The position numbers were made by a program, and so were the translations under genes. A DNA stretch of 64,000 nt from Desulfosudis oleivorans Hxd3 (GTDB lineage Bacteria; Desulfobacterota; Desulfobacteria; Desulfobacterales; Desulfosudaceae), in the NCBI RefSeq assembly GCF_000018405.1, contig NC_009943.1, forward strand, positions 1,553,001-1,617,000, in the 5' to 3' direction. The first letter of the stretch is position 1; the number at the start of each line of letters is the position of its first letter. Below, piece by piece: positions 39,301 through 58,188 of this stretch. A model generated the notes under the pieces. It made no database searches. It had not been told where the DNA came from and saw nothing but the letters and a program-made list of their open reading frames with translations.

Positions 39301-39464
39301 ACGGCGCAGTAAGGGCAGATAGTGGTGGTCTGCTTTGCGTGCAGGGTCCGTAAGGAGTAAGCATATGCCTCGATGGGCGAGAGATCGAGGCCCAGGGTGC
39401 CGAAAGCGATCCCCGCAATGGACGCTCCCGAAAATTTAAGAAACTGGCGTCTGTTGATGTCCAT
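36324..39464 (-). CDS. fdhA: Formate dehydrogenase catalytic subunit, UGA read as Sec190
   Basis: A 1046-residue Mo/W-bis-MGD enzyme that oxidises formate to CO2 in the periplasm. A Tat signal (MDINRRQFLKFSG) is at the N-terminus, then the [4Fe-4S] motif CPYCAVGCG..GSLCSKG. The catalytic residue is Sec190 at the in-frame TGA 38895-38897: ARIUHSATVAALAESFGRG equals the ARVUHxPTVAxLAxTFGRG signature of FdnG-type enzymes. Later motifs are GGGVNALRGESNVQG and SARGELEAVAMVT. Read without Sec it would be two ORFs, both lacking an essential part. It lies two bases after the cytidylate-kinase-like gene and in the same strand unit as a permease and CBS protein. Confidence 0.93.
38862..38897 (-). promoter_or_regulatory. 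SECIS-like element of fdhA
   Basis: After the TGA (38895-38897) the minus-strand RNA forms a 7-bp stem with one G-U pair (CGGCTCT/AGAGTCG) and loop GGC, the loop starting 24 bases after the TGA with G first. It falls in the range known for bacterial SECIS. Confidence 0.65.
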
Positions 39465-39466
39465 GG

Positions 39467-40246
39467 TTACCTCCTTTTCAAGTTGAGCGATTGAAGCTCA
39501 TTGGCAAACTTATGTTCAAAGGCGATCCTGACAATGGCAGCCGCCCATTCAGGCTGTGTGATCCGGTCACAGTTGATTACCAGGTCAAACGCTTCGGCTT
39601 CATGGGCCTCCTTCTGGTATACCGCCTTGAAAAAATCCCGTTGTTCCCTGTCGATCAAGACCAGTTGTTTATCGGCTTCCTGCTCGTCGATGCCGTATTG
39701 CCGGGCGATGCGTCGAAGCCTGGGCGGCCTGCTGCAGATAAACCGGATCGCCAGGGTCCGGTCCCTGGGCAGCACCATGTGTGCCCCCCGCCCGATGAAA
39801 ATCGTGGGGCTCAGGCTGGCAATGGAATAGATGGCGGAAAAGAGCTGCCGGGTGGTTTTGGACATGTCAAAGGTCTTGTCTCCGGCCATCATCATCAGGT
39901 ACTGGGTGATGATGTCCGGGTACTGTTCATTGAAAAACCGCACTGCCCGGTCGCTGAGGGGGTCCTCCCCGCCTACGTGTTCCAGGATCTCCCGGTCCAC
40001 GACCCGGTATCCGATGTCTTTGGCCAGGATGTCGGCGATTTCCATGACACCGCACCCGATGGGCCGGGAGAAGCAGATCGTGGGCGGCATATCGGGCTTG
40101 ATGGGGCTGGGCTTTTTCCCGGCTTTTTGCTGCTCCCAGTCGCGCATATACCCGCCGATCATCTGGTCAATTTCCGTGCCCTTGCGCCGGTGTTGTCGAA
40201 CAAAGGCCCACTGCACCTGGCCCTCCTGGGATCTGTTTGCCGTCAT
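39467..40246 (-). CDS. Cytidylate-kinase-like family protein
   Basis: A 259-residue protein. ICFSRPIGCGVMEIADILAKDIGYRVVDREIL resembles the P-loop and following region of cytidylate-kinase-like proteins, and FIGRGAHMVLPRDRTLAIRFIC and RRIARQYGIDEQEADK follow as in this family. The substrate is not known; regulatory rather than metabolic members exist. It precedes fdhA by two bases, so it is co-expressed with it. Confidence 0.8.
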   Translation of the reverse strand: MTANRSQEGQVQWAFVRQHRRKGTEIDQMIGGYMRDWEQQKAGKKPSPIKPDMPPTICFSRPIGCGVMEIADILAKDIGYRVVDREILEHVGGEDPLSDRAVRFFNEQYPDIITQYLMMMAGDKTFDMSKTTRQLFSAIYSIASLSPTIFIGRGAHMVLPRDRTLAIRFICSRPPRLRRIARQYGIDEQEADKQLVLIDREQRDFFKAVYQKEAHEAEAFDLVINCDRITQPEWAAAIVRIAFEHKFANELQSLNLKRR

Positions 40247-40270
40247 GATGATTTCCCTTTCTCATACTTA

Positions 40271-40855
40271 TCAGGATGTTATGACCGCGCCACAGTCGGG
40301 GCCCACGATGTTCATCATCTCCGCGAACAGGTGGGTGAAGTTTAATACGCCGATGACCTTGCCGTTGCGCGTCACCAGCAGCTCCCGCACGTGCAGCTTG
40401 AACATGGAGTAGATGGCCCAGTTGATCGTGTCATCCTCTTTTAACACCGCGTGGGCCGGGGCCATGCACTCCCGGATACTCTTCCGGGATTCGGTTTTCA
40501 CCAGATCGAAAAAGCTCTGGTGCAGCCAGGCAAACCGCTCCTGGATTTCCGACACATCTTCTGAAACCTGCTGAACCCGGGAGGAGAACAGGGTATTTAA
40601 CGCCCGCAGCTCCATTGTTTTGGATGTCTCCGGCACCAGAGCCCGAATAAAATGATACATGGAGAGCTTTCCCACGATATGCTCTTCGTCCGTCACAAAG
40701 ATCGATTTGTTGAACCGGGCCGCCGAGTGGGGCATGCACTGATCGTAGTGTTTTTTCAGCCGGATCATCACGTCGCACAGCGGAGCGTCCACATCAATCG
40801 TCTCATAATCCGTGATGGGGGCCATCAGGTCTTTTACCTTTTTTTCCTGGGTCAT
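40271..40855 (-). CDS. CBS-domain protein
   Basis: A 194-residue protein with a pair of CBS motifs at both ends (VKDLMAPITDYETIDVDAPLCDVM near the N-terminus; IRECMAPAHAVLKEDDTINWAI and VRELLVTRNGKVIGVLNFTHLF near the C-terminus), separated by a helical insert. CBS pairs bind adenine nucleotides and would link the permease/Fdh operon to energy state (inference). Confidence 0.85.
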   Translation of the reverse strand: MTQEKKVKDLMAPITDYETIDVDAPLCDVMIRLKKHYDQCMPHSAARFNKSIFVTDEEHIVGKLSMYHFIRALVPETSKTMELRALNTLFSSRVQQVSEDVSEIQERFAWLHQSFFDLVKTESRKSIRECMAPAHAVLKEDDTINWAIYSMFKLHVRELLVTRNGKVIGVLNFTHLFAEMMNIVGPDCGAVITS

Positions 40856-40912
40856 TGCGTCTGTCTCCTCTTTAAAGCAGCCGGTTACCGGGTCTTATAC
40901 CGCCATGCCCGC

Positions 40913-42646
40913 TTATACGGGCCGGAATATGAACAGCCACGCATGGGCGATGACCACGCTGATGATCATGAAAGGGAAGGCCAGTTTCATGAAGTGGAGA
41001 AAACTGATCTTATATCCCCTGGATTCGGCGATGCCCACAGTGACCACGTTGGCAGAGGCCCCGATCATGGTGCCGTTGCCGCCGAAGCAGGCCCCCAGGG
41101 CCAGGGCCCACCAGAGCGTGTTCTCCGCGCCGGGAATGACCGTGCTCAGGTAGGCGACAATGGGCAGCATGGTGGCGGTAAAGGGAATGTTGTCCACAAA
41201 AGCGGACATGATGGCCGCCACCCAGATGATCAGACTGCACGCCACGAAAAAGTTGCCGGCCGACAGTTCCAGGATCCAGTCGGCGATCAGGGCCAGCAGG
41301 CCGCTGGATTCAACCGCTCCCACCAGCATGAACAGGAAGATAAAGAACATCAGGGTGGGCCACTCAATGTCCTTTTCAATCAGCTCCAGCAGGTTCACCT
41401 TGCCGGTGACAAGGGCGATGGTTAAAAACACCGAGGCCCCGATCAGGGCCGCCACGCTGACCTCCATGTGCCAGAACCCGTGGGAAAGGAACAGGAACAC
41501 CACAAAGGCCAGGATGGCCAGGCCGTATGTGAGCAGGGTGGCGTCGGTGATTTTGTAGCGCTCCCTGAGTTCCCGGGTGTAGGCTTCCACGTTGTCGATT
41601 TTTGCTCCTTTGTACTCCCTGCCCCACACCAGTTTGGTATAGAGTACCAGGGCCACCATGGAGACCACGCAGATCAGGGCCAGGGCCACCACGAACTGGG
41701 TGAACGTCAGGCCCGCGTAGGAGCCGATCATGATGTTGGGCGGGTCGCCGATCAGGGTGGCGGTACCACCGACATTGGAGGCCAGCACCAGGGGAACCAG
41801 CAGGGTCAGGGGGTTGATGGCCAGCGACAGGCTGATCTCAATGGCCACGCCGGTGAGCAGCAGCATGGTGGTCACGTTGTCCAGAAACGCGGAGGAGACG
41901 GCGGTGAATATCATCAGGTAAACGGCCAGCACAAACACGTTGCCCCTGGCCAGCTTGTAAGAAAGATAGGCGCACCACTGGAACACGCCGGTGTGCTTGA
42001 GAATGCCGATGATGATCATCATGCCCATGAGCAGGAAAATCACGTTCATGTCAATGGCGCCGATGGCCGCCTCATAAGAGAGAATCCGGAATTCCGGGTT
42101 GATGGTGCCGATGGTATAGGAGATGACCAGCATAAGGGCCGCGCCCAGCATGGCGGCCACGGTCCGGTGAAGCAGCTCGAAGCTGATCAGTATGTAGGCC
42201 ATCACGAAGGTGATGGTGGCGATCCAGAAGGCCGGTCCCAGATGGCGGGGCAGAACAATGTCTTCGGTGATAAAACAGTTCCCCTCCCGGTGGGCGAACT
42301 GGTCTGCGGTGATCTGAAACGTCTGGGTGGCAAAACTGGCCTTTCGCACGATCACGCTGAAGGTGGTGTCCGGCAGCGCCTCTTCCGGGCAGGCAAACCG
42401 GGCCAGGTATTTGCCACCGTGGGCCGTGGTGTCTGAAAAAACCAGGGCCCTGTCGATAAATACCGATATTTCCGCCTCATTGACCGGCTCTGAATGGCTG
42501 TCGGTGATGATGCCGGAAATGTTGATCGCCACGTGGCCGGCGGGAATCTCCGCGGGCGGCGCCCCAGCCGGCCCGTGACCGGCAAAGGCAAATGATGTTG
42601 AGAAGATCAGGAGCAGGATGGTGGTGAAAAAGGATGAAGGTCGCAT
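40913..42646 (-). CDS. NhaD/ArsB-type ion permease with secreted N-terminal domain
   Basis: A 577-residue protein. A signal peptide (FFTTILLLIFSTSFAFAG) is followed by ~100 residues like a carboxypeptidase-regulatory/Ig domain (VAINISGIITDSHSEPVNEAEISVFID). From residue ~150 come 11-12 helices of the ion transporter (IT) superfamily, with NVTTMLLLTGVAIEIS, SNVGGTATLIGDPPNIMIGS and FVDNIPFTATMLPIV, all typical of NhaD/ArsB/P-type permeases. The start at 42646 has GGGGGAC before it. Substrate unknown (Na+/H+, arsenite or citrate-like). Confidence 0.87.
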   Translation of the reverse strand: MRPSSFFTTILLLIFSTSFAFAGHGPAGAPPAEIPAGHVAINISGIITDSHSEPVNEAEISVFIDRALVFSDTTAHGGKYLARFACPEEALPDTTFSVIVRKASFATQTFQITADQFAHREGNCFITEDIVLPRHLGPAFWIATITFVMAYILISFELLHRTVAAMLGAALMLVISYTIGTINPEFRILSYEAAIGAIDMNVIFLLMGMMIIIGILKHTGVFQWCAYLSYKLARGNVFVLAVYLMIFTAVSSAFLDNVTTMLLLTGVAIEISLSLAINPLTLLVPLVLASNVGGTATLIGDPPNIMIGSYAGLTFTQFVVALALICVVSMVALVLYTKLVWGREYKGAKIDNVEAYTRELRERYKITDATLLTYGLAILAFVVFLFLSHGFWHMEVSVAALIGASVFLTIALVTGKVNLLELIEKDIEWPTLMFFIFLFMLVGAVESSGLLALIADWILELSAGNFFVACSLIIWVAAIMSAFVDNIPFTATMLPIVAYLSTVIPGAENTLWWALALGACFGGNGTMIGASANVVTVGIAESRGYKISFLHFMKLAFPFMIISVVIAHAWLFIFRPV

Positions 42647-42742
42647 CGTGTCCCCCCTGTGCATGTGACATCATTGCGGGCCAGGGCGCTTGCTGTCCGT
42701 TACAGAACGCCGGCAAAAGCCAATTTTGCTGCAATCAAAGAG

Positions 42743-44549: not shown

Positions 44550-45455
44550 TCACTGCTGGTGCAGCACTCTGTCCATTTCAAAAAACAGGTCCTGCTCCCG
44601 GACCACGCCGGCCAGCTCTCCATTCTGCATGACCACGACACGCCGGGCGTTCATGGTTACCATCATATAGGCGGCTTCCATGAGAGAGGCACCGGCATCG
44701 ATGGTAAAGGGCTCCGGCGACATGATCTCCTTTATCTTCAGGGATGACCTGCGCCGGACTTCAGCGGCGAACATGCCGTCCCAGAACATGGGGGAATACT
44801 GGACGCTGTCGGCCATGGAGGGTTTTGGCGCGGAAAGATACGACGGCAGAATCATTTTCAGCAGGTTGGTGATGGCCAGAAACCCCTGGGGCCGCCGCTG
44901 TTTGTCCACCACCAGCACCGACCGGTGGCCGGTTTCCATCAGCCGGGACGTTGAGTGCTTCAGGGCAAAGGACGCCTTCAGTTCGGCAATGGCCTGGGCC
45001 ACGGTACACTCCCCGTCCAGCAGGGTATAATCATCTATGGGCACCATGATACCCTGGACGGTTCTCTCTTTCTCCTGCTTTTTGCTGGTGCCCCTGCGGA
45101 ACGCCTCCCGGATTGCCTCGGCCAGAATATGAATGTCGCAGGGTTTGGTCAGGTAGTTCAGGGCGCCTTCCTCGTAGGCCTGCTGGGCCGAGGTGGGGCC
45201 GCCATGGCCGGTGAGCATGACCACCGGCTGGGCGGGCCGGATTTTGTGAATCTCCTTGAGGGTTTCATGACCGTCCATGTCGGGCATTTTGATGTCCAGG
45301 ACAACCACGTCCGGCCGTTCGGTCATTTTGGCAATCGCCTCTTTCCCGTTGGCCGCCAGCACGATGTCAAACCCCCGCCGCCGCAGCAGTTTTTCCGTGG
45401 TCGCGCGGAACTGGGCCTCGTCATCCACCATCAGAACCTTGATTGTGTCAGTCAT
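44550..45455 (-). CDS. Receiver-CBS fusion response regulator
   Basis: A 301-residue protein. The N-terminal receiver has the acidic pair in VLMVDDE, phospho-Asp in VVLDIKMPDMDG, MLTGHG and switch Lys in LTKPCD. Residues ~135-295 are a pair of CBS domains (VQGIMVPIDDYTLLDGECTVAQAI; IKEIMSPEPFTIDAGASLMEAAYMM). Joining a phospho-switch to an adenine-nucleotide sensor is uncommon. Probably controls the transporter of its operon without DNA binding. Confidence 0.9.
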   Translation of the reverse strand: MTDTIKVLMVDDEAQFRATTEKLLRRRGFDIVLAANGKEAIAKMTERPDVVVLDIKMPDMDGHETLKEIHKIRPAQPVVMLTGHGGPTSAQQAYEEGALNYLTKPCDIHILAEAIREAFRRGTSKKQEKERTVQGIMVPIDDYTLLDGECTVAQAIAELKASFALKHSTSRLMETGHRSVLVVDKQRRPQGFLAITNLLKMILPSYLSAPKPSMADSVQYSPMFWDGMFAAEVRRRSSLKIKEIMSPEPFTIDAGASLMEAAYMMVTMNARRVVVMQNGELAGVVREQDLFFEMDRVLHQQ

Positions 45456-46200: not shown

Positions 46201-48057
46201 TTAGAACCCCGGCAGGCCGGCAAACCCCCTGGCCATCCAGTAGATGCCGCTTAAGGCCATCAGCACGATATTGCCCAGAAACCACAGCGGAATACCGGCC
46301 CGGAGGAAATCCTTGGGCTCCAGGTAACCGCTGGCGTAAACAATGGCGTTGGGCGGCGTGCCGATGATCAGGCAGTAGGCAAAGGACGAGGCCATGGCCG
46401 TGGTCATGGTGATAAAGGGCAGAAACGAGGTGCCCGGATGGGCCAGGCCGGCCATGTTCAGGGCAATGGGGCCCACTGCCGCGGCCGCCGGACCGTCGGC
46501 CATGAAGTTGGTCAGCACCGCGGTCAAACCATTGGAAAGGGCCAGCAGGGGCAGACCCGCGTCGATGCCCAGGGGTGCCATGGCATCCAGAACGCTTCTG
46601 GCCAGCCAGTAGGCGGCCCCTGTTTCATCCAGGACCCGGCCGAAGATGATGGCGCCGGCATAGAGCCACACCACGCCCCAGTCCACCTTTTCCTGGTAGT
46701 CCCGCCAGTTGACCACACCGGCCAGCAGGTAGGCCACGGCCCCGGCCACGGCAATGACGCCGATGCCCAGCCGTACAGGGTAGATGCCCATTTGATAGAA
46801 GGACTTCTCCGTGAACCAGCCGAAGACCATCACCACAAAGATGACCAGGGCCGCTATCTGGGTCCGGTTCCAGCCGCCCATTTTGGCGATCTGCACCTGA
46901 AGATGGTCCATGGCCGGTGCCAGGCTTTTGATTTTGGGTTTGAAGCTGGCATTCACCAGCAGCCAGGAGACCGGGATCATGATCAGCAGAAAGGGGAAAC
47001 AGTAGGTGACCCACTGAAAGTAGCCGATGTCAAACCCGAACATGTCGTTTAAGTAGGTCATCATGATCACGTTGCGGGCACCGCCGGAAGGGGCACCGGG
47101 CCCGCCGATGTTGCAGGCCACCGCGATGGCGATCATCAGCAGCTTGGCCAGCTCCGGGTCTTCCGGTACCTCTTCGGTGAGGCTGTTCTGATAGAGGAGA
47201 ATGCCGATGGGCAGAAACATAGCGGCCAGGGCGTGGTCCGAGATAAAGGCGGCCAGGGGCGTGATGATCAGAAAGAAGATCAGGGTGATCCATTTTACGT
47301 TGGGCTTTGCCAGCTTTTTGAACATCATCAGGCAGAGCCGTTTGTCTACCCCGGTCTTGACAAAGGCGGCGGCAAACATCAGGCTGCCCATGATAAACCA
47401 GCAGGCGTCGCTCCAGTAGAGCATGGCCACCTCGTGGCGGGTGACAAGGCCTGTTACCACCAGAAAAATGCCGATGCAGAAGGCCACACCCGGCAGGGGA
47501 ATGCACTCGGTGAGAAAGCAGCCCACCACGAAAACCATCATCACGATGGCGGCCTTGATGTGCCATGCCCCCTTGTCGGCCAGTACCCGGTCCTTTTCAT
47601 TGAGGGTTTCATACGTCAGACCGTCCTTGCGCAGTTCCATGGCGGATGCCATGATCTCCTTAAAACGCTCCGGCGTGACCTGGGTGTCGATAAATTCCCG
47701 GGCCTTGGCCAGGTGGGACTCCACCACCGGAATTTTGTATCCCCTGCACCACTTGGCGTCCCGATTTAAAAACCGCTCCTTTGTCAGTGCCCCCATGTTC
47801 ATGTTTTGTTCCATGATTCGGGCTGTGAGCAGCTGCCACTGCTCGACATCGCTGCTGGATGTTTCAAACAGGGTGGTGGTCACGTAATTGATCACCGCCC
47901 CGGGACCCACCCGGTACTCCATGCCCACGTCCTTCATGCCGTAGGGCGTGGGAAGCAGCAGAATCACGGCGCACAGCACCACGGGAAAGATAAACACCTT
48001 CCAGTCGACATACTTGTCATATCCCGATGCTTTTGCTTTTGTCTTTTCTCCGGCCAT
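46201..48057 (-). CDS. SLC13/DASS-type anion permease
   Basis: A 618-residue membrane protein. One N-terminal helix, a ~110-residue soluble insert (residues ~45-160, with periplasmic-looking sequence) and then about 11 helices. NIGGPGAPSGGARNVIM and NFMADGPAAAAVGPIAL occupy the places of the two substrate/Na+ motifs; these are divergent from the classical SNT motifs. Likely substrates are dicarboxylates, sulfate or related anions. Second gene after the kinase; paralogue of the receiver-permease fusion at 50838. Confidence 0.85.
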   Translation of the reverse strand: MAGEKTKAKASGYDKYVDWKVFIFPVVLCAVILLLPTPYGMKDVGMEYRVGPGAVINYVTTTLFETSSSDVEQWQLLTARIMEQNMNMGALTKERFLNRDAKWCRGYKIPVVESHLAKAREFIDTQVTPERFKEIMASAMELRKDGLTYETLNEKDRVLADKGAWHIKAAIVMMVFVVGCFLTECIPLPGVAFCIGIFLVVTGLVTRHEVAMLYWSDACWFIMGSLMFAAAFVKTGVDKRLCLMMFKKLAKPNVKWITLIFFLIITPLAAFISDHALAAMFLPIGILLYQNSLTEEVPEDPELAKLLMIAIAVACNIGGPGAPSGGARNVIMMTYLNDMFGFDIGYFQWVTYCFPFLLIMIPVSWLLVNASFKPKIKSLAPAMDHLQVQIAKMGGWNRTQIAALVIFVVMVFGWFTEKSFYQMGIYPVRLGIGVIAVAGAVAYLLAGVVNWRDYQEKVDWGVVWLYAGAIIFGRVLDETGAAYWLARSVLDAMAPLGIDAGLPLLALSNGLTAVLTNFMADGPAAAAVGPIALNMAGLAHPGTSFLPFITMTTAMASSFAYCLIIGTPPNAIVYASGYLEPKDFLRAGIPLWFLGNIVLMALSGIYWMARGFAGLPGF

Positions 48058-48135: not shown

Positions 48136-49866
48136 TTATCGCTGGACCGGCAGAATGATAATGAAGCTGGTGCCGGCGCCGGGCAGCGACTGGACATCCA
48201 TGCGTCCTTCCATGGCTTCCACGATGCCCAGGCTGATGGCCAGGCCGAGGCCCGTCCCCTTGCCCGCCTCCTTGGTGGTGAAGAACGGGGTAAATATTTT
48301 TCCCATTACTTCGTAAGGAATTCCCTTACCGGTGTCGGATACCGTCACCACGACATTATTGTTATCCACAGCTGTTTTCAGGGTGATTTTGCCGGGCCCC
48401 TCAATGGCATCCACCGCGTTGTTGACCAGGTTTAAAATCACCTGGCGCATCTGGTCCGCGTCCATCAGGACCGGTGGCACCTCCGACGCATATTCCTTGA
48501 CAATATCGATGTTGGCGATGTGACATTCACGTTCCAGGAAACCGTCCACCACCTCGTCCAGAATCCGGTGAATGTCGCAGAGTTCCATTTTCGGCTCGGT
48601 CTTGCGGGCCGAGCTGAGCAGCTTGTACGTGATGTCCTTGGTCCGGAAAACCGCGGACTCAACGATTTCAAGCTCTTTTATCATCTGGTCCACCGCCTCC
48701 TGCCCGAAGGGGGGGGCGTGGCCCCCGAGTTCCGGGTCGAACAGGTCCCGGATCACCACACACTGGGAGGCAATAAGGGCCAGGGGGTTGTTGATTTCAT
48801 GGGCGATGCCGGCGGCCAGCTCCCCTACTGACGCCAGCTTGGCGGCGTGAAAGAGCTGGGCCTTGAGCTCCCGCCGGTTTCTTTCCGTTTTTTCGGCTTT
48901 CCGGATCAGTGAGTTGGTGGTGATCAGCACAGCGGTAAACAGCAGCAGGGCCGCCAGCGTGGTCCCGATAATGATATAGCGCCGCGCTGTATACATGCGG
49001 GCGTAGGCCACGTCCAGGGGTTGCTTGACCACCAGCACCCAGGGCGCTTCCTCGAGCCACGCATATCCCACCAGCTTGTCACGCCCGTCGGTTTTGATTT
49101 CCGCAACCGCCGACCCTTCAAGCACGGTGGGCTGAAAGGCGCTTTTGTCAAGCACGTTGGCGTACCCGGGATCCACAACCTGGAACTCCCACTCCCGGTT
49201 TATGATAAAGGAGTTGACCTGCTTGCCCTGGCCGATGGATCGCAGAAAGTGGTAGAACTTGTCCGGATCCAGGGTGGCCCGCATGATGTAGAACCGTTCT
49301 CCCATGCGCTGTTTGACGGCTATGGTGAAGTGGGGCTTGTTGCGGAACCCCAGGTAGATATCGCTGATAAAATAGTCGGCCTCCTGGGTCAAAAGGGTTT
49401 TAAACCACAACTCGTCGCTGTAATTCTGTTGGTGGAGAAAGACATAGGGCCCGGCGTAACCAATCTGGACGCCGGTATCGTCCAGAAACCCCACGTCGAT
49501 AAAGGCCTCGCTGGTCTCCTGCAACCGCTTGAGATACATCTCCATATCGGTCGGGGAGGGCGGCAGGTTGAACCCCCGCCCGCGAAACAGGTTGAATACA
49601 TTTACCACCCGTTCCTGCAGAAAAAGATCAATGGTGTTGCGCTGGCTTTCCGCCAGGGAGAGCAGTTGCTGTTTGCCGCTCTGCTTCATCGTCAGGTTGA
49701 ACTGCATATGAAAATAGATGGACAACAGGGCCAGAGGGGCCAGAAAAGCGACGACCATCGCCGCCAGCACGCGTCTTCTCAGCCGCGAAAAGTCGTAGGG
49801 CGGGGTGCCGTCCATCGGTCGGGTTGCGCCCCCCGCGCCAGGGGGGGGTGTTTGTGCCGTTGCCAT
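48136..49866 (-). CDS. dCache-type sensor histidine kinase 1
   Basis: A 576-residue protein. TM1 (residues ~30-52), a periplasmic double-Cache sensor of ~240 residues (FIDVGFLDDTGVQIGYAGPY; YLGFRNKPHFTIAVKQ; FYIMRATLDPDKFY), TM2 (~300-320), then a kinase core with His in GELAAGIAHEINNPLALIAS (NtrB-like), N-box NLVNNAVDAIEG, and G-boxes DTGKGIPYE and GKGTGLGLAI. Four bases after the receiver gene at 49871-50290 and followed by the permease. Paralogous to two more kinases in the window. Confidence 0.9.
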   Translation of the reverse strand: MATAQTPPPGAGGATRPMDGTPPYDFSRLRRRVLAAMVVAFLAPLALLSIYFHMQFNLTMKQSGKQQLLSLAESQRNTIDLFLQERVVNVFNLFRGRGFNLPPSPTDMEMYLKRLQETSEAFIDVGFLDDTGVQIGYAGPYVFLHQQNYSDELWFKTLLTQEADYFISDIYLGFRNKPHFTIAVKQRMGERFYIMRATLDPDKFYHFLRSIGQGKQVNSFIINREWEFQVVDPGYANVLDKSAFQPTVLEGSAVAEIKTDGRDKLVGYAWLEEAPWVLVVKQPLDVAYARMYTARRYIIIGTTLAALLLFTAVLITTNSLIRKAEKTERNRRELKAQLFHAAKLASVGELAAGIAHEINNPLALIASQCVVIRDLFDPELGGHAPPFGQEAVDQMIKELEIVESAVFRTKDITYKLLSSARKTEPKMELCDIHRILDEVVDGFLERECHIANIDIVKEYASEVPPVLMDADQMRQVILNLVNNAVDAIEGPGKITLKTAVDNNNVVVTVSDTGKGIPYEVMGKIFTPFFTTKEAGKGTGLGLAISLGIVEAMEGRMDVQSLPGAGTSFIIILPVQR

Positions 49867-49870
49867 ATGC

Positions 49871-50290
49871 CTATCCGTCCTGTTGTGAAGCGGGTCCGGG
49901 TAAAGTGGGTGTCTCCTCGCCGTAGCAGCCCGTCAGCAGACGGGATACCTGCGCTTTCAGCACCTCGACATCCCCGTTTTTTTCGACAAAGCCATCGGCC
50001 TGTCGAACAATGGGCAGATCGCTGTATTCGGAGAATGTGGCGAAGATAATCACCGGCGTATCCGGAACCGTGTTTTTAAGTTTTCTCAGCACATCCGCCC
50101 CGTTCAGATAGGGAATGTCCAGATCAAGAATGACAAGGTCAGGCGGCGGAAGGGTATAGAGTTTTGAGAAAAGCTGAATGTGATTGGCCGCCTGAATCAC
50201 CTCGCAGCAGGGCGAGGAAAGCTCCCGCACCAGGAATTTCCTGACAAGGAGATTGTGATCGGCAATCAGAATTTTAAATTTCCGGCTCAT
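49871..50290 (-). CDS. Single-domain response regulator (variant)
   Basis: A 139-residue receiver. LILADHNLLVRKFL has one acidic residue where the pair usually stands; the phospho-Asp is in VILDLDIPYLNG and the switch Lys in VEKNGDVE. No output domain. Start at 50290; four bases before the kinase, so the pair is co-expressed. Confidence 0.82.
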   Translation of the reverse strand: MSRKFKILIADHNLLVRKFLVRELSSPCCEVIQAANHIQLFSKLYTLPPPDLVILDLDIPYLNGADVLRKLKNTVPDTPVIIFATFSEYSDLPIVRQADGFVEKNGDVEVLKAQVSRLLTGCYGEETPTLPGPASQQDG

Positions 50291-50558
50291 TGGCGTTGTC
50301 TCTGAGCGTCCCAAGAATGTTCATAGCCGCTATGGCTAGAGCAAACCCTGTACCAAAACCCGCCGCAGGATCGAAAAACTCCCGGAGTGTTTTATCAGTC
50401 CATTGATATTGTTCTTTTTTATTATTTGCTTCACCGGAGCCCGGCAGTATTTTGAAAGTTTTTGCGGACAGGCCCTGTCGACTTTTTTTATAGATTGTCA
50501 AAAAAAAATGCACGGTACCGGAAAAGGCGGTGGCCGCCGGCCATTGATGTACCGGCAC
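50274..50558 (-). CDS. Possible small protein upstream of the receiver gene
   Basis: A 94-codon frame whose end overlaps the receiver start. Only the C-terminal half (KEQYQWTDKTLREFFDPAAGFGTGFALAIAAMNILGTL) looks protein-like, with a hydrophobic stretch. No convincing start or ribosome site was found; a shorter version starting inside is likely if it is real. Confidence 0.25.
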   Translation of the reverse strand: MPVHQWPAATAFSGTVHFFLTIYKKSRQGLSAKTFKILPGSGEANNKKEQYQWTDKTLREFFDPAAGFGTGFALAIAAMNILGTLRDNANEPEI

Positions 50559-50837: not shown

Positions 50838-52904
50838 ATGGAAGAAAATACGACTAAAAATCAGAATGATACCGGATTGAGACTGCTGGTGGTGGATGAC
50901 GAGGACCAGTTTCGGGCGTCGCTGGCAAAGCAGTTGAGAAACAGGGGCTTCAAGGTTTATGAATCCAGCAACGGTGAAGATGCCATCAAGATTGTGCGGC
51001 ACAAGAACCCGGAGGTGGTTCTCCTGGACCAGAAGATGCCCCATATGGACGGCATCCAGACCTTAAAGGAACTAAAAAAGATTCGGCCGGAAGTGCAGGT
51101 CATCATGCACACGGCCTATGGCAATATCGAGTCGGCCCGGGTGACGGGAAAACACGATGTCTTCTGCTACCTTGAAAAACCCTGCGATTTAAACCAGCTG
51201 ATCAGCATGATCAAGCTGGCCGGTGAGGAACGGACCTATGCCCTGGCCCGGCACGAGATTCCGGATGTCAAGCGAAACAGCCTGAAAGCCTGGCTGATGG
51301 GGGTCCAGAACGCCCGGCCCGGCATTATTATGCTGGGCGTTCTGCTGTTTCTGGGGCTTGCCTTCATGCCCACGCCGGATACGCTGAACAATTTTCTGAC
51401 GGCCAAAAAAACCGGGGTGATGGGCGAAGAGATCAACGGGTATTCCGATTACCGCAAAATGAAAACCGGCCAGACCATTGTTGAGTATTACACCGCCAAG
51501 GCCGGGCTGTATGAAAAAACCGTCACCCCGGACGGCAAGACGGTCAACACGCTGCCGGGTGTTGAGAAAATCGCTTTCAAGGCAAAGGTCATGGTCGGTG
51601 TCCTGGTGGTGGCGGCCCTGTTCTGGGCCACCGGCGCGGTGCCCATCGGCATCACGGCCCTTCTGGTGGGCACGCTGATGTTTTTTTTCGGGATACTGAA
51701 GCCCGACGACGTGGCAAAGGCCTATGCAAAGGACTCGGTGATCTTTATTTTCGGGGTTCTGGCCTTTGCCGCGGCCATCGGTAAAACCGGGCTGGACCGC
51801 AGAATCGGCATTCTGCTGCTGGGCACCAGCACCAACCTGACCAAGTTCGCGCTGATTTTCGCGCCGCTGCTGGCCGTTACTGCTTCATTTCTCTCCGAAC
51901 ACGCCCTTGTGGCCTTTATCGCTCCGATCCTCATGCTGGTGTACATGGGCGCCATCAAGGCCGCCGGCGTCAAACAGGACAAAAGCCTGGTGGTCATGTT
52001 CATGCTGATGCTCACCTTCACGGCAAACATCGGTGGCCCGGGTTCTCCGGCGGCCGGCGGGCGCAACGCCGTGATGCTGGGCATTTTTTCCGACTACGGC
52101 CTGAGTCTCTCCTTCGGCCAGTGGGTGAAGATGGGCCTGCCCTTTGTGCCGGTGATGGCCCTGGTCATTGCCGGTTATTTTCTTCTGGTAGTCCGCAGGG
52201 GCATCAAGACCCAGTCCATCAACGTGGCGGCCGCGGTGAAACGGGAGGCGGAAAAGATCGGGAAAATGACGGCCGATGAGTACAAGGCCGGGGCCATTCT
52301 GGTGCTCGTTATTTTCTTGTGGGTTACCATGTCTGACACGCTGGGCATGGGCGGGCCGGTTATCCTCTGCCTGGTGCTGCTCAATATTCTGGGCATTCTC
52401 ACGTGGAAGGACATCAACGGGATCCATTTTGACGTGGTTGCCCTGTATGCGGCGGCCAGCGCCATGGGCTACGGCCTGGCCGTTACCGGCGGTGCCCTGT
52501 GGCTGGCCAACTCTTTTGTGTCGATTCTGCCCGATTTTCTACGAAGCGGCAACGGCCTTCTGATGTCGACCAGTATGATCACAGGCATCCTGACCAACTT
52601 CATGAGCGACGGCGCCACAGTGGCGGCGGTGGGTCCCATTACCGTGCCCATGGCCACCCTGTCCGGCACCTCGCCCATCCTGGTGGGACTTGCCACGGCA
52701 TTTGCATCCTCGTTCGCCCACATGATGATCATCGGCACGCCCAACAACGCCATTGTCTACAGCCTGGCCAGGGACCCGGAAACCGGGGAACAGCTGGTCA
52801 CCATGAAGGACTTTTTTATCCACGGCGGCGCTGTTTTTCTTTTAAGCATGGCGGTGTTGTGGATCTGGGTCTTTTTCGGATACTGGCGATGGGTATCATT
52901 ATAA
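50838..52904 (+). CDS. Receiver domain fused to SLC13/DASS-type permease
   Basis: A 688-residue protein. Residues 14-130 are a complete receiver domain: Asp20-Asp21 in LLVVDDED, phospho-Asp64 in VVLLDQKMPHMDG, Thr92 and Lys114 in LEKPCD. A ~30-residue linker leads to about 12 hydrophobic helices from residue ~163. NIGGPGSPAAGGRNAV and NFMSDGATVAAVGPITVP are the counterparts of the DASS substrate motifs and match the permease at 46201-48057. All catalytic receiver residues are present, so phosphorylation on the cytoplasmic side could gate transport directly. The start at 50838 is in frame with AAAGGAG ten bases upstream. The downstream genes are a second receiver and a dCache kinase. Confidence 0.92.
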   Translation: MEENTTKNQNDTGLRLLVVDDEDQFRASLAKQLRNRGFKVYESSNGEDAIKIVRHKNPEVVLLDQKMPHMDGIQTLKELKKIRPEVQVIMHTAYGNIESARVTGKHDVFCYLEKPCDLNQLISMIKLAGEERTYALARHEIPDVKRNSLKAWLMGVQNARPGIIMLGVLLFLGLAFMPTPDTLNNFLTAKKTGVMGEEINGYSDYRKMKTGQTIVEYYTAKAGLYEKTVTPDGKTVNTLPGVEKIAFKAKVMVGVLVVAALFWATGAVPIGITALLVGTLMFFFGILKPDDVAKAYAKDSVIFIFGVLAFAAAIGKTGLDRRIGILLLGTSTNLTKFALIFAPLLAVTASFLSEHALVAFIAPILMLVYMGAIKAAGVKQDKSLVVMFMLMLTFTANIGGPGSPAAGGRNAVMLGIFSDYGLSLSFGQWVKMGLPFVPVMALVIAGYFLLVVRRGIKTQSINVAAAVKREAEKIGKMTADEYKAGAILVLVIFLWVTMSDTLGMGGPVILCLVLLNILGILTWKDINGIHFDVVALYAAASAMGYGLAVTGGALWLANSFVSILPDFLRSGNGLLMSTSMITGILTNFMSDGATVAAVGPITVPMATLSGTSPILVGLATAFASSFAHMMIIGTPNNAIVYSLARDPETGEQLVTMKDFFIHGGAVFLLSMAVLWIWVFFGYWRWVSL

Positions 52905-52928
52905 TAAAGAAACAATCACAGGTGCGTG

Positions 52929-53450
52929 ATGGCAGATGAAGCCGGTGTGAAAAAAATCAGTATTCTGATCGTGGATGATGAGCCGGATTTTTTAAATGCC
53001 ATCCGCCATATACTGGAGGTCCGGGAATTTCATGTGGTAACCGTTGACCGGGGCGGCAAGGCAGTTGATGCCGCCCGGCAGGCGCTGTTTGATATCGCCC
53101 TGGTCGACCTGAAGATGCCGGGCATGGATGGAGACGAAACCCTGCGGACACTGAAAGCGGAACATCCTGAGATAGAGGTGGTGATTCTCACCGGCCATGG
53201 ATCAAAGGATGCCGCGGCCGCCTGCCTGGAAAGCGGGGCCATGGCCTATCTGTACAAGCCGTGCCAGTTGAATGAGCTGCTGGAGGTCCTTGTGGACGCA
53301 TACCGAAAAAGGGTGATGGACAGGCATAAGATGGAACCGCGGTGGATGGACGACCTTCTGGGCGTGCTCCCGCCCGGTTCTCCCATGGCGGCGCTGCGCC
53401 GGCTCCGGGAGCTGGACGCAACACCGCCGGCAATGGAAGGTCGGCCCTGA
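52929..53450 (+). CDS. Single-domain response regulator
   Basis: A 173-residue receiver with an extra C-terminal tail. ILIVDDEPDFL (acidic pair), ALVDLKMPGMDG (phospho-Asp), ILTGHG and LYKPCQL (switch Lys). The tail (residues ~125-173) is helix- and Pro-rich without recognised function. Begins 24 bases after the receiver-permease stop and is co-directional with the kinase. Confidence 0.87.
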   Translation: MADEAGVKKISILIVDDEPDFLNAIRHILEVREFHVVTVDRGGKAVDAARQALFDIALVDLKMPGMDGDETLRTLKAEHPEIEVVILTGHGSKDAAAACLESGAMAYLYKPCQLNELLEVLVDAYRKRVMDRHKMEPRWMDDLLGVLPPGSPMAALRRLRELDATPPAMEGRP

Positions 53451-53467: not shown

Positions 53468-55132
53468 ATGGATAAACAGGTTCGGAAAATGATTCTGGTA
53501 AGGGTCCTGCTGGTCCCTTTCCTGATCGTACTGGCGGTCTACGGCACCCTGGTCTACTATTTTTCCGCCTACGCCGCCCGGCAGGTAAGGGCCGAACTGG
53601 TCCGGGTGGCAGCCGATCACCGTACGCTGATTGACCGGTTTCTCGAAGAGCGGGTGGCGGATATCCGGTTTATCGTTTCCTCCTATGATATGGAGACCCT
53701 CCAGGACCCGCAACGGTTAACCCGAATATTCAGGAACCTGCAAGCCGCATCCACTGTTTTTTTTGACCTGGGTGTGTTTGACGCGGAGGGAAAGCACCTG
53801 GCATACGTCGGGCCTTACGACCTGACCGGAAAGGATTATGGACAGGAGCCGTGGTTTGTGGCCGTCCGGGACAAGGGTATATTTATTTCAGACGAATTCC
53901 TCGGGTATCGCAATATTCCCCATTTTATTATCGCCATACGCAAACAGGCGGGTGGGAAAAACTGGTATATCCGCACCACCATCGATACCTTTGCGTTCAA
54001 TGACCTGGTCGAAAATATTCGCATCGGCAAAACCGGGGAGGCCTACCTGGTTAATACAAAGGGGGTATTTCAGAGCGACCGGCGATCCGGCGGCCGCCTG
54101 ATGGCAACAGACCCGGATTTTGACCGTTATGTGCTTGACCGGGACGAGGTCTCCTTTTTTTCCATCAGAACCGTGGATGGAAGGAAATTTGTCTACGCGG
54201 CGGGCCCCCTCAAACAGGCCGGATGGGTCATGGTGGTGCGGCAGACCGCCGCCGACGCCTATGCCGACCTGACCTTTGCGGTGATCATATCGCTGATCAT
54301 GATCATCGGCGGCGGTGCCATCGTCCTGGTGATGGGGTTTATTCAGGCGTCCGCCATTGCCGGACGCCTCAAGCTGGCGGACATGGAAAAGCAGCAGATG
54401 AAGACCCAGCTGGTCATTGCCGGCAAGCTGGCCGAGGTGGGGGAGATGAGCACGGGCCTGGCCCATGAAATCAACAACCCGCTTCAGGTCATGAAGTCCG
54501 AGCTTGCCATGATCAATGTTGTGATGTCCGATATCGCGGAAAAGCAGAACCAGCCTGATCCCGAAGATTTTAAGGCCCTTGATGAGTCGGTGCGGCAGAT
54601 CGCCATACAGATCGAGCGGTGCGCGAAAATCACCCAGGGGCTGCTCCGGTTTGCCCGCAAATCGGAGATTGTCCTGCAGCCGGTGAATATCGGCACCTTC
54701 ATTCCCGAGGTGGTGGGCATGGTCGAACAGCGGGCCGGCGTGGAAAATATCCGTATCATTCAGGAACTGCAGGACGGTGCACCGCCGGTCATGAGCGACC
54801 CAAACCAGCTTCAGCAGGTGTTTTTAAACCTTTTCAACAACGCGATGTATGCACTTAAGGGGAAAACCGGCGCCGAGATCCGCGTTCGCAGCCTGCGGGA
54901 GGGGAATGATCTTGTGATAACGGTGGCGGACAACGGCTGCGGCATTACTCCGGAGGACATGGAAAAAATCTACCTGCCGTTTTTCACCACCAAACCGGTG
55001 GGCCAGGGAACCGGCCTGGGGCTGAGCACCGTCTATGGCATTATAGAGGGCCTGGGCGGCCGCATCACCGTGGAAAGCGAGGTCAATGCCGGCACGGTGT
55101 TTACCATCCGCCTGCCCATCGGCAGGACATGA
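53468..55132 (+). CDS. dCache-type sensor histidine kinase 2
   Basis: A 554-residue protein. TM1 (residues ~9-30), double-Cache periplasmic sensor (FFDLGVFDAEGKHLAYVGPY; EFLGYRNIPHFIIAIRK; WYIRTTIDTF), TM2 (~275-297), kinase core with His in GEMSTGLAHEINNPLQVMKS, N-box NLFNNAMYALKG, and G-boxes DNGCGITPE and GQGTGLGLSTV. The start at 53468 has AGGAG before it. Third gene after the receiver-permease; probably phosphorylates its receivers. Confidence 0.9.
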   Translation: MDKQVRKMILVRVLLVPFLIVLAVYGTLVYYFSAYAARQVRAELVRVAADHRTLIDRFLEERVADIRFIVSSYDMETLQDPQRLTRIFRNLQAASTVFFDLGVFDAEGKHLAYVGPYDLTGKDYGQEPWFVAVRDKGIFISDEFLGYRNIPHFIIAIRKQAGGKNWYIRTTIDTFAFNDLVENIRIGKTGEAYLVNTKGVFQSDRRSGGRLMATDPDFDRYVLDRDEVSFFSIRTVDGRKFVYAAGPLKQAGWVMVVRQTAADAYADLTFAVIISLIMIIGGGAIVLVMGFIQASAIAGRLKLADMEKQQMKTQLVIAGKLAEVGEMSTGLAHEINNPLQVMKSELAMINVVMSDIAEKQNQPDPEDFKALDESVRQIAIQIERCAKITQGLLRFARKSEIVLQPVNIGTFIPEVVGMVEQRAGVENIRIIQELQDGAPPVMSDPNQLQQVFLNLFNNAMYALKGKTGAEIRVRSLREGNDLVITVADNGCGITPEDMEKIYLPFFTTKPVGQGTGLGLSTVYGIIEGLGGRITVESEVNAGTVFTIRLPIGRT

Positions 55133-55218: not shown

Positions 55219-55662
55219 ATGAGTGACATGCAACTGCTGATCATTGATGATGAAGAGAGGTTTGTCAAAACCACCCAGGCCCTGCTGGAGCGTAAAGGGG
55301 TTCACACCCATGTGGCCACCAACGGGACCGATGCCATGCAGGTGCTTGAAAAGGAGCGGGTGGACGTGGTGGTGCTTGACATCAAGATGCCCGGCCTGGA
55401 CGGCATAGAGACCCTGCGGGTGATAAAAAAACGGTATCCACTGGTGGAGGTGATCATGCTTACCGGCCATGCGTCGGCGGAAACCGCCGTGGAAGGCATG
55501 AACCTGGGGGCCTTTGACTACCTGATGAAGCCGTGCGATGTGGAAAAGCTGCTGGAAAAAGCCGAGGCGGCTTATGAGAAAAAAGTCGCGCAGGCGGAAA
55601 AGGCCCGGAAAGAGAAGATCGACAAAATCATCAGCGACCCCCTGGAGGCCCTCAAAAAATAG
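55219..55662 (+). CDS. Single-domain response regulator
   Basis: A 147-residue receiver. LLIIDDEERFV, VVVLDIKMPGLDG, MLTGHAS and LMKPCDV carry the active-site residues. A charged helix (AYEKKVAQAEKARKEKIDKI) ends it. AAGGAGGTCAAAGAAG precedes ATG 55219. No output domain. Confidence 0.88.
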   Translation: MSDMQLLIIDDEERFVKTTQALLERKGVHTHVATNGTDAMQVLEKERVDVVVLDIKMPGLDGIETLRVIKKRYPLVEVIMLTGHASAETAVEGMNLGAFDYLMKPCDVEKLLEKAEAAYEKKVAQAEKARKEKIDKIISDPLEALKK

Positions 55663-55952: not shown

Positions 55953-56378
55953 ATGACGACTGCGAGCGTGTTACTGGTGGATGACGAGGAGGCCTTTGCC
56001 ACCTCCAACGCAAAACTTCTGAGCAACCGGGGGTATGATGCCCGAACCGCCCTGGACGGCAAAGCGGCACTTCAGGTGCTTGCGGAAAACAACATCGACG
56101 TGACCGTGCTGGATGTGCGCATGCCCGGAATGGACGGTATTTCTCTGCTCACGGAGATCAAGAAGCGGTTTCCCCTGGTGGAGGTGATCATGCTCAGCGG
56201 CCAGGCAACGTTTGAAACGGCGGTGGAGGGTCTCAAACTGGGCGCCAGCGACTATCTGATGAAACCCTGTCAGATCAGCGACCTTGTCGGCAAAATCGAG
56301 GAAGCTCTGGAAAAGCGCAAAATAAACGAAGAGAAACAGCGGTACGAGGCGGCCCGTGAACAGAAGGGGGCCTCATGA
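55953..56378 (+). CDS. Single-domain response regulator
   Basis: A 141-residue receiver. LLVDDEEAFA, VTVLDVRMPGMDG, MLSGQAT and LMKPCQI carry the active-site residues, followed by a charged helical tail (KRKINEEKQRYEAAREQ). Close paralogue of the two receivers on either side. Confidence 0.88.
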   Translation: MTTASVLLVDDEEAFATSNAKLLSNRGYDARTALDGKAALQVLAENNIDVTVLDVRMPGMDGISLLTEIKKRFPLVEVIMLSGQATFETAVEGLKLGASDYLMKPCQISDLVGKIEEALEKRKINEEKQRYEAAREQKGAS

Positions 56379-56405
56379 TCTTCCGCCAGGACAATATTCG
56401 AGTTC

Positions 56406-56435
56406 AACCCGGATATTTTATGAAATATCCGGGTT
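56406..56435. repeat. Perfect solo hairpin of the CCCGGATATT family
   Basis: AACCCGGATATTT and AAATATCCGGGTT form a perfect 13-bp stem with loop TATG, inserted between two receiver genes and 13 bases before the start of the second. Confidence 0.8.
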
Positions 56436-56448
56436 AAGGGTGAGTGCA

Positions 56449-56868
56449 ATGGTCAATGTGCTTTTCGTGGATGATGAGGCCGGTTTTCTGGATATCATTA
56501 CCAAGCGAATGACAAAGCGGGGCGTGGCGTCCGTGGGCATCGCCGACGGGGAAGAGGCCTTGTCGCTGATTGAAAAGCAGCCCTTTGATGTGGTGGTGCT
56601 GGACGTCAGAATGCCGGGCTGCAGAAGCGGCATCGAGATTCTCAAGGAGATCAAGACCCGGTGGCCCCTGGTGGAGGTGATCATGCTGACCGGGCATGCC
56701 CTGCTGGAAGTGGCAAAAACCGGAATGGAAAACGGCGCGTTTGATTATCTTGTCAAACCGGCCGATTTTGATGAACTGTACTACAAGATCAGAGATGCCG
56801 GCCAGAAGAAAAAGCTGCAGGAAACAAAGATAAAGGGAATTGACGATATCATGAAGAAACAGGTGTAA
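56449..56868 (+). CDS. Single-domain response regulator
   Basis: A 139-residue receiver. VLFVDDEAGFL, VVVLDVRMPGCRSG, MLTGHA and LVKPADF carry the active-site residues; unlike its neighbours it has Ala in place of Cys after the switch Lys-Pro. The start at 56449 is chosen because the receiver fold begins there. Followed by the TauE/SafE permease 36 bases later. Confidence 0.87.
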   Translation: MVNVLFVDDEAGFLDIITKRMTKRGVASVGIADGEEALSLIEKQPFDVVVLDVRMPGCRSGIEILKEIKTRWPLVEVIMLTGHALLEVAKTGMENGAFDYLVKPADFDELYYKIRDAGQKKKLQETKIKGIDDIMKKQV

Positions 56869-56904
56869 CGGAAACAGAAAACGAGAATGAAAAGGAGAAA
56901 ATCT

Positions 56905-58188
56905 ATGGGGTTCTTGACAAAAGCGGGCCAGTTCATGTACGCGGGCGCGCGGGCCCATGCAGAATGGGAAATCACCATGGCCAGGAACATTCTGGGGGAC
57001 AGAAGGCGGCTTTTCGTGCTGGGGTTGATGCTGCTGCCGATCCTCATCGGCGGCTATGTTTTCGCCGACGAGATCGCCAACGGGATTCCCCAATATCTGG
57101 GAGGGAAACACGCTTACAGCCCCTCGTTTTTTACCACTAAGATCTTTATCGCCTCGATTCTGATCGGACTCTGCGCGGGCCTGATCACCGGGTGCATCGG
57201 CGCGGGCGGCGGGTTCATCATCGCCCCGGCCCTGATGAGCGCCGGCATCAAGGGCATCCTGGCGGTGGGTACCGACCTGTTTCATATTTTTGCCAAGGCG
57301 ATCATGGGAAGCGTGCTCCACAGAAAGCTGGGCAACATTTCGGTGGTGCTGGCCGTCACCTTTCTGATCGGTTCCATCGGCGGCGCCACCCTGGGCGGGT
57401 GGATCAACCGGGTGCTCTATGAGATCAACCCCATCATCAGTGATGCTTTTATTACCACCATCTACGTGGTGATGCTGGGGGCTTTGGGGCTCTACGCCCT
57501 TACCGATTTTCTCAAGGCCAGAAAGGCGACCGGCGGTGGTGGTGATTTTCACGGCGGCAAGGATGAAGGCGTGGATATGGGCAACCTGCCCAAGAAACTC
57601 CAGGGCATGAACATGGCCCCCATGGTCACCTTTGACCAGGGCCTGGTTCCCGGCGGCCGCCGCATCTCCGCGTGGTTCCTTATCTTAAGCGGATTTTTCG
57701 TCGGCCTGGCAGCCGCGATCATGGGCGTGGGCGGCGGGTTTCTGACCTTTCCCATCTTTGTCTATATCCTGGGCGTCTCTTCCATGACCACGGTGGGAAC
57801 CGATATTTTTCAGATCGTTTTCACCGCCGGGTATGCGGCCATCGGCCAGTACGCCATTTTCGGCTTTATCTTCTATACACTGGCCATGGGCATGCTGCTG
57901 GGGTCGCTGGTCGGTATTCAGATCGGCGCCATGACCACCAAGGTGGTCAAAGGGGTCACCATTCGGGGATTCTACGCCATGGCCGTTCTGGCCGGGTTTG
58001 TCAACCGGTTCTTTGCCCTGCCCGCCAAGCTCTCCTCGGTGGGGGCCTTTCCGCTTTCAAAGGAGACCGCCGCTGTTCTGGATGCCATCGGTATCTGGCT
58101 CTTCTTTGTTCTTATCGGCATTTTCGCGGTCTGGGTCATCGGCACCTTTGTACTGAACATCAAGACACTTAAAGGCGGGGAGGCATAA
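56905..58188 (+). CDS. TauE/SafE-family sulfite/organosulfonate-type exporter
   Basis: A 427-residue membrane protein. After an N-terminal cytoplasmic part and one helix come two similar halves of about four helices each: ITGCIGAGGGFIIAPALMSAGIKGILAVGTDLFH and AAIMGVGGGFLTFPIFVYILGVSSMTTVGTDIF. These two GxGGG..GTD repeats are the signature of the family, which exports sulfite or sulfonates or takes up such anions. AAGGAG lies before ATG 56905. It follows a receiver and precedes a membrane protein, forming another receiver-permease pair. In a sulfate reducer a sulfur-oxyanion role is plausible. Confidence 0.88.
   Translation: MGFLTKAGQFMYAGARAHAEWEITMARNILGDRRRLFVLGLMLLPILIGGYVFADEIANGIPQYLGGKHAYSPSFFTTKIFIASILIGLCAGLITGCIGAGGGFIIAPALMSAGIKGILAVGTDLFHIFAKAIMGSVLHRKLGNISVVLAVTFLIGSIGGATLGGWINRVLYEINPIISDAFITTIYVVMLGALGLYALTDFLKARKATGGGGDFHGGKDEGVDMGNLPKKLQGMNMAPMVTFDQGLVPGGRRISAWFLILSGFFVGLAAAIMGVGGGFLTFPIFVYILGVSSMTTVGTDIFQIVFTAGYAAIGQYAIFGFIFYTLAMGMLLGSLVGIQIGAMTTKVVKGVTIRGFYAMAVLAGFVNRFFALPAKLSSVGAFPLSKETAAVLDAIGIWLFFVLIGIFAVWVIGTFVLNIKTLKGGEA

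Follow-up and report, generated by a model that had tools for sequence, protein, structure and literature searches.

Dissimilatory sulfate reduction begins with sulfate uptake, whose control has so far been modelled as gene regulation. The closest described system is a 30.5-kb gene cluster of Desulfosarcina variabilis that combines DASS, two-component and CBS proteins and has relatives in 26 sulfate reducers (PMC11887813, 2025). According to the main text of that paper, proteomics and annotation assign such clusters to the uptake of sulfate, cache kinases and "WalR-type" response regulators are proposed to activate DASS expression, and the CBS protein is suggested to be a cytoplasmic energy/APS sensor. 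Permeases of this kind had been placed in DASS group C in a 2018 study (PMC5840216), which reports that DASS genes of this group change with the sulfate level in Desulfobacterium autotrophicum and that sulfate uptake strongly affects the rate of dissimilatory sulfate reduction. A receiver fused to a permease goes unmentioned in the main text of PMC11887813, from which the words "fusion", "fused" and "receiver" are absent, and in the open-access literature we found neither a described fusion of a receiver (REC) to an SLC13 permease nor a receiver with a full secondary transporter as effector.

The window analysed here, a 64,000-nucleotide stretch of the Desulfosudis oleivorans Hxd3 genome, carries exactly such a fusion. 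The features of the fusion and its surroundings are the following, in window coordinates:

44550-45455, - strand: REC-CBS response regulator adjoining the unfused permease
46201-48057, - strand: unfused DASS paralogue, 618 amino acids, of a different clade (Pfam, NCBIfam, tree)
48136-49866, - strand: second sensor histidine kinase, dCache-like (dCache_1 below cut-off), transcribed divergently from the fusion
49871-50314, - strand: single-domain receiver upstream of the second kinase (Pfam)
50838-52904, + strand: REC::DASS-type permease fusion, 688 amino acids, a single open reading frame with an ATG start and AAGGAGA just before it
50886-51215, + strand: receiver domain of the fusion, residues 17-126 (Pfam Response_reg and conservation), with D20, D21, D64, T92 and K114
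51216-51317, + strand: conserved linker, residues 127-160, from receiver helix alpha-5 to TM1, with motifs ARHEIP and W..G..N.RPG
51546-52895, + strand: permease domain, residues 237-686, with SEH (353-355) and SDG (590-592) replacing the SNT motifs and R409 invariant
52926-53450, + strand: single-domain response regulator, 174 amino acids, directly downstream of the fusion, a conserved partner
53468-55132, + strand: dCache sensor histidine kinase (Pfam dCache_1 and HATPase_c, HisKA below cut-off), the likely phosphodonor
55219-55662, + strand: single-domain receiver (Pfam)
55953-56378, + strand: single-domain receiver (Pfam)
56356-56868, + strand: single-domain receiver (Pfam)
56887-58188, + strand: TauE/SafE-type permease in the island (Pfam)

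The initial annotation had described a complete receiver followed by a full SLC13/DASS permease in one frame, and a Pfam search of the translated protein bears this out, with both domains well above their gathering scores: Response_reg matches residues 17-126 (E 4.9e-26), and Na_sulph_symp matches residues 237-686 (E 2e-37; 129.8 bits against a gathering score of 27). No kinase domain was found in the fusion protein with Pfam, and thus it is not a transporter-kinase of the SLC5-STAC type. The active-site residues had also been named correctly, as in an alignment of 82 sequences D64, T92 and K114 are present in all 82, D20 in 81 and D21 in 80. In the same alignment, the linker residues R138, E140, I141, P142, W152, N158, R160, P161 and G162 are each kept in at least 80% of the sequences. 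A sequencing error that had joined two genes, which the annotation expected to leave a stop in the linker, can be rejected: the frame at 50838-52904 (+ strand) has no internal stops, in the linker or elsewhere, and the fusion recurs in other genomes (see below). A frame of comparable size was not found on the reverse strand opposite this interval.

The fusion permease stays below the curated NCBIfam cut-off of TIGR00785 ("dass"; 162.4 versus 198.6 bits), which is exceeded by the unfused paralogue (214.2 bits). Since this cut-off is not reached, we regard the permease as DASS-related; judged from its sequence, it is a divergent DASS branch in which the SNT motifs have been swapped for SEH and SDG. 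The two SNT motifs of VcINDY correspond to SEH in 82 of 82 and to SDG in 81 of 81 fused permeases, so that substrate and coupling ion are not readable from VcINDY. In addition, an arginine in the TM5 loop (Arg409) is invariant in the fused clade. The unfused permeases of such clusters share this arginine and carry related motifs (SDH/ADG, SAH/SDA), and the remodelled substrate site is therefore older than the fusion. Elsewhere in the permease core, conservation is exceptional (GGPGSPAAGGRN, TNFMSDGAT, GTPNNAI) and extends to unfused relatives. An AlphaFold2 model, built from an 84-sequence alignment, predicts two domains with confidence (mean pLDDT 85.7, pTM 0.77) and extends the last receiver helix (118-138) into the linker. 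The permease part of the model resembles NaCT, NaDC3, NaS1, yeast Pho90 and VcINDY (VIA Z 31-39; NaCT 38.9, NaS1 36.6, VcINDY 32.2), which places it within the DASS elevator fold, and the receiver part resembles CheY-like domains (Z about 21). When short permease fragments were compared with the PDB, no useful match was found for hairpin 1.

Among 297 genomes of the phylum, a near relative with a receiver was found only in the window's genome and in one genome of another family (G189), whose 692-residue fusion is 78% identical in the permease and has a matching neighbourhood; all others in this sample are unfused permeases of 35-49% identity. In 84,980 species genomes (genome_contigs), 212 relatives were identified, of which the best 80 were examined. 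All of these 80 are single-frame REC-permease fusions, three of them cut by contig ends, with identities of 52-79% overall and 58-84% in the permease. The concern that the fusion might be missing from all related genomes is thus removed. The hosts of these best 80 relatives belong to Desulfobacterota, Zixibacteria, Acidobacteria, Gemmatimonadota, Planctomycetes, Calditrichaeota, Fibrobacteria and unplaced bins, a spread that depends on no single bin, certain bin names being doubtful, and an oddity of one lineage was rejected on this ground. In the zixibacterial phylum, 34 of 132 genomes have the fusion, including partial genes cut off at contig ends and a few copies split between frames. Bins named Nealsonbacteria or Pirellulales hold Desulfobacterota-like fusions (L056, L054, L057), and the "Nealsonbacteria" bin of 9.1 Mb is certainly a mixture. 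Two different fused permeases occur in some genomes (G330, G334, G555; L094 and L099; L044 and L047).

In the bootstrap tree, which leaves out one fused protein truncated by a contig end (L097), the fused proteins form one clade (99/99, 100% of bootstrap trees). As they all lie on one side of a single branch, one fusion event suffices, and several independent fusions were rejected, the tree requiring one change. In the unfused sister clade, a separate REC gene can precede the permease, at a distance of 18 bp in L011 and of 45 bp in L013, which by gene order is a "Rosetta stone" pattern. These stand-alone RECs score higher with the profile of the downstream REC than with that of the fused REC, and descent of the fused receiver from a neighbouring stand-alone REC is unsupported by the profile scores. 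The REC-permease fusion is real, ancient and widespread.

The fusion is strongly linked to dissimilatory sulfate metabolism. Within 50 fusion genomes, dsrA was identified in 45 (43 above cut-off and two cut fragments), aprA in 43, and at least one of both in 48. In the zixibacterial phylum, dsrA is present in 29 of 34 genomes with the fusion versus 18 of 98 without it (Fisher p=3.9e-12), where the p-value is indicative, the genomes not being independent samples, and the dsrA/aprA linkage is correlational. In the Gemmatimonadota sample, dsrA is found in one of 149 genomes lacking the fusion and in the sole genome that has it. DsrD occurs in 20 of 52 fusion genomes, mainly Desulfobacterota, and the window's genome has both aprA and dsrD. 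The oxidative-pathway marker DsrE was above cut-off in none of the 38 fusion genomes tested. The reverse pathway of sulfur oxidisers is therefore disfavoured, less conclusively so outside Desulfobacterota given the 20 of 52 for DsrD. In genomes G322-G346, mainly from outside Desulfobacterota, dsrA and aprA are present, DsrE is absent and DsrD mostly fails to reach the Pfam cut-off; this Dsr type lacks both of the usual direction markers. The substrate of the fusion permease is probably sulfate.

In the window's genome (G000), the fusion lies in an island that extends from about window position 44550 beyond the window end, to C1:1622260, and contains three DASS-type permeases, several RECs, a REC-kinase hybrid, REC-CBS, TauE and an APS kinase. 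The APS kinase (CysC) gene closes the island past the window (L034 4589-5263, corresponding to C1 about 1621.6-1622.3 kb). The initial annotation had pointed to a nearby dCache kinase at 53468-55132, and the kinase is indeed there, with the qualification that its reading frame, open from 53342 on, overlaps the REC gene, with the ATG at 53468 as a plausible start codon. It had also proposed the permease at 46201-48057 as a natural comparison; this is nearby and unfused but no clean control, being only about 35% identical and having its own REC-CBS protein (44550-45455) adjoining.

Across genomes, the core operon runs on one strand from the dCache kinase, often through a CBS-pair protein, to the REC-permease and a single-domain REC. 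The kinase is found upstream in 53 of the 57 fusion loci whose flank is long enough, and in 62 of 70 a REC-only gene follows downstream, at many loci about 20 bp off. CBS neighbours, counted by BLAST, occur in 51 of 80 fusion loci (the best 80 of 212 relatives), 32 of them at most 100 bp upstream. All 33 partner RECs scanned match Response_reg in Pfam and are receiver-only, with a DNA-binding domain in none; thus the core operon has no other output domain than the permease. Elsewhere in the window's genome (L036 2792-5205, C1 about 922.8-925.2 kb), a distant DASS-like permease sits beside a CBS protein that is 47% identical to the CBS protein of the L066 fusion operon, a second permease-CBS pair in this genome. 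The window also encodes a CitMHS/ArsB-like permease of the ion-transporter superfamily (39467-42664, - strand), whose N-terminal stretch is carboxypeptidase-regulatory-like at a score below cut-off; next come a CBS protein and an apparent cytidylate-kinase-like protein. CBS proteins are repeatedly found next to such permeases. The formate dehydrogenase alpha subunit at 36324-39464 (- strand) has one in-frame TGA (..YIEHQARI-TGA-HSATVAAL..), as would be expected of a selenocysteine-containing FdhA.

Given the invariant phosphorylation site, the conserved linker, the kinase partner and the lack of another output domain, in the simplest account the permease is the effector of a response regulator, and on comparative evidence the fusion is a conserved regulatory architecture. 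In the mechanism that we propose, the dCache histidine kinase would sense a periplasmic solute and phosphorylate Asp64 of the cytoplasmic N-terminal receiver. The signal may then travel along the extended last helix and the conserved linker to TM1 of the permease and so set transport activity, probably through receiver-receiver contact across the permease dimer. The adjacent single-domain REC might compete for or drain phosphoryl groups, as a phosphate sink, and in many species the CBS-pair protein may add a cytoplasmic energy or APS signal. Thus, we favour the reading in which a two-component system has the permease itself as its output and phosphorylation sets sulfate-type transport, with a probability of roughly 0.55. 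To the fuller proposal, that receiver phosphorylation gates sulfate entry without transcription and that this transporter output arose once before spreading to dissimilatory sulfate metabolisers in many phyla, we would give even odds. Both the gating and the sign of control are what we infer. Switching within milliseconds, as put forward in the initial annotation, is speculative. The existence of unfused sister permeases counts against gating, since it means that a fused receiver is not needed for transport, and partner specificity is ambiguous given the two dCache kinases and several RECs of the window island.

Foremost among the alternatives to gating is a transceptor working in reverse, in which the permease senses flux or occupancy and its conformation controls the phosphorylation or release of its own receiver, the latter being, rather than a transport switch, an input relay that informs the other cluster members (kinases, RECs and CBS proteins). 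SLC5-STAC-histidine kinases (CbrA and relatives) do pair a transporter with kinase domains for substrate sensing, the altered substrate motifs would suit such a role, and many single-domain RECs lie close by. However, receivers accept phosphoryl groups and the permease has no fused kinase domain, the dCache kinases already supply a periplasmic sensor, and the core operon has no downstream DNA-binding output, so we judge this reversal of roles rather unlikely. Somewhat less credible is the published view, in which kinase and response regulators control the transcription of transporter genes and the fused receiver would be incidental, as a phosphate sink or membrane tether. Its basis is the activation of DASS expression set out in the main text of PMC11887813 and the response of DASS genes to sulfate in D. 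autotrophicum (PMC5840216). Against it stand the partner RECs, the permease as the sole output domain of the fused receiver and the position of the NtrC-type regulator of the island, at the far end and with its own kinase; moreover, an incidental receiver would be unlikely to retain D64, T92 and K114 throughout the 82 sequences.

The exchange of SNT for SEH and SDG at both hairpin tips, invariant in the fused clade, could also mean that the permease domain lost transport and became a membrane sensor or anchor. With the remaining core highly conserved, unfused relatives included, and the fold complete, a changed binding site is indicated rather than decay, and loss of transport seems very improbable. 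Gating by the receiver might instead be retained with a substrate other than sulfate, such as sulfite, thiosulfate, a molybdate-like oxyanion or an electron-donor dicarboxylate. The substrates of DASS proteins include dicarboxylates and other dianions, and the hairpin motifs are unlike those of characterised members, so this has a real if small chance of being correct; the dsrA/aprA linkage across unrelated phyla, the assignment of such clusters to sulfate in the main text of PMC11887813 and the APS kinase gene with which the island ends speak for sulfate. If our preferred reading of the permease as a phosphorylation-controlled output holds, a secondary transporter would join the list of response-regulator outputs, and a sensor kinase may switch the entry of sulfate, the terminal electron acceptor, directly, bypassing gene expression. 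With a receiver built in and kept by sulfate metabolisers of different phyla, the permease makes such direct post-translational control testable by a single aspartate mutation.

As far as we searched the open-access literature, gene clusters of this kind are known, and the REC-permease architecture and its consequence are undescribed; the statement of the initial annotation that there was no well-described case holds for the fusion, but related clusters had already been published (PMC11887813). That annotation had also noted neither dissimilatory sulfate metabolism as the substrate context nor the altered substrate motifs. The window island resembles the D. variabilis-type cluster in its DASS permeases, dCache kinases, response regulators and CBS proteins. 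The clusters in the main text of PMC11887813 are from sulfate reducers only and come with a transcriptional model, whereas the fusion is found in many phyla, with partner RECs that are receiver-only. VcINDY, NaCT and NaS1, the human sulfate transporter, which carries sulfate, have the fold and Pfam family in common with the fusion permease, from which they differ by its N-terminal receiver and a loop of about 65 residues after TM1; VcINDY in addition has SNT instead of SEH/SDG and Pro at the position of the invariant Arg409. In yeast Pho87 and Pho90, the latter a structural match, a cytoplasmic regulatory domain (SPX) likewise lies N-terminal to a permease of the same fold. SPX senses inositol pyrophosphates; it is unrelated to receivers, and no kinase phosphorelay is involved. 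The SLC5-STAC-histidine kinases (CbrA, CrbS/MxtR, RpuS) also join a secondary transporter and two-component parts in one chain, but with a transporter of another family, a STAC domain that the fusion lacks, and the transporter on the sensor-kinase (input) side, whereas in the fusion it is on the receiver (output) side. Finally, response regulators with non-DNA-binding outputs share with the fusion a receiver and an effector under a histidine kinase, from which the fusion differs in having as its effector a complete multi-span secondary transporter.
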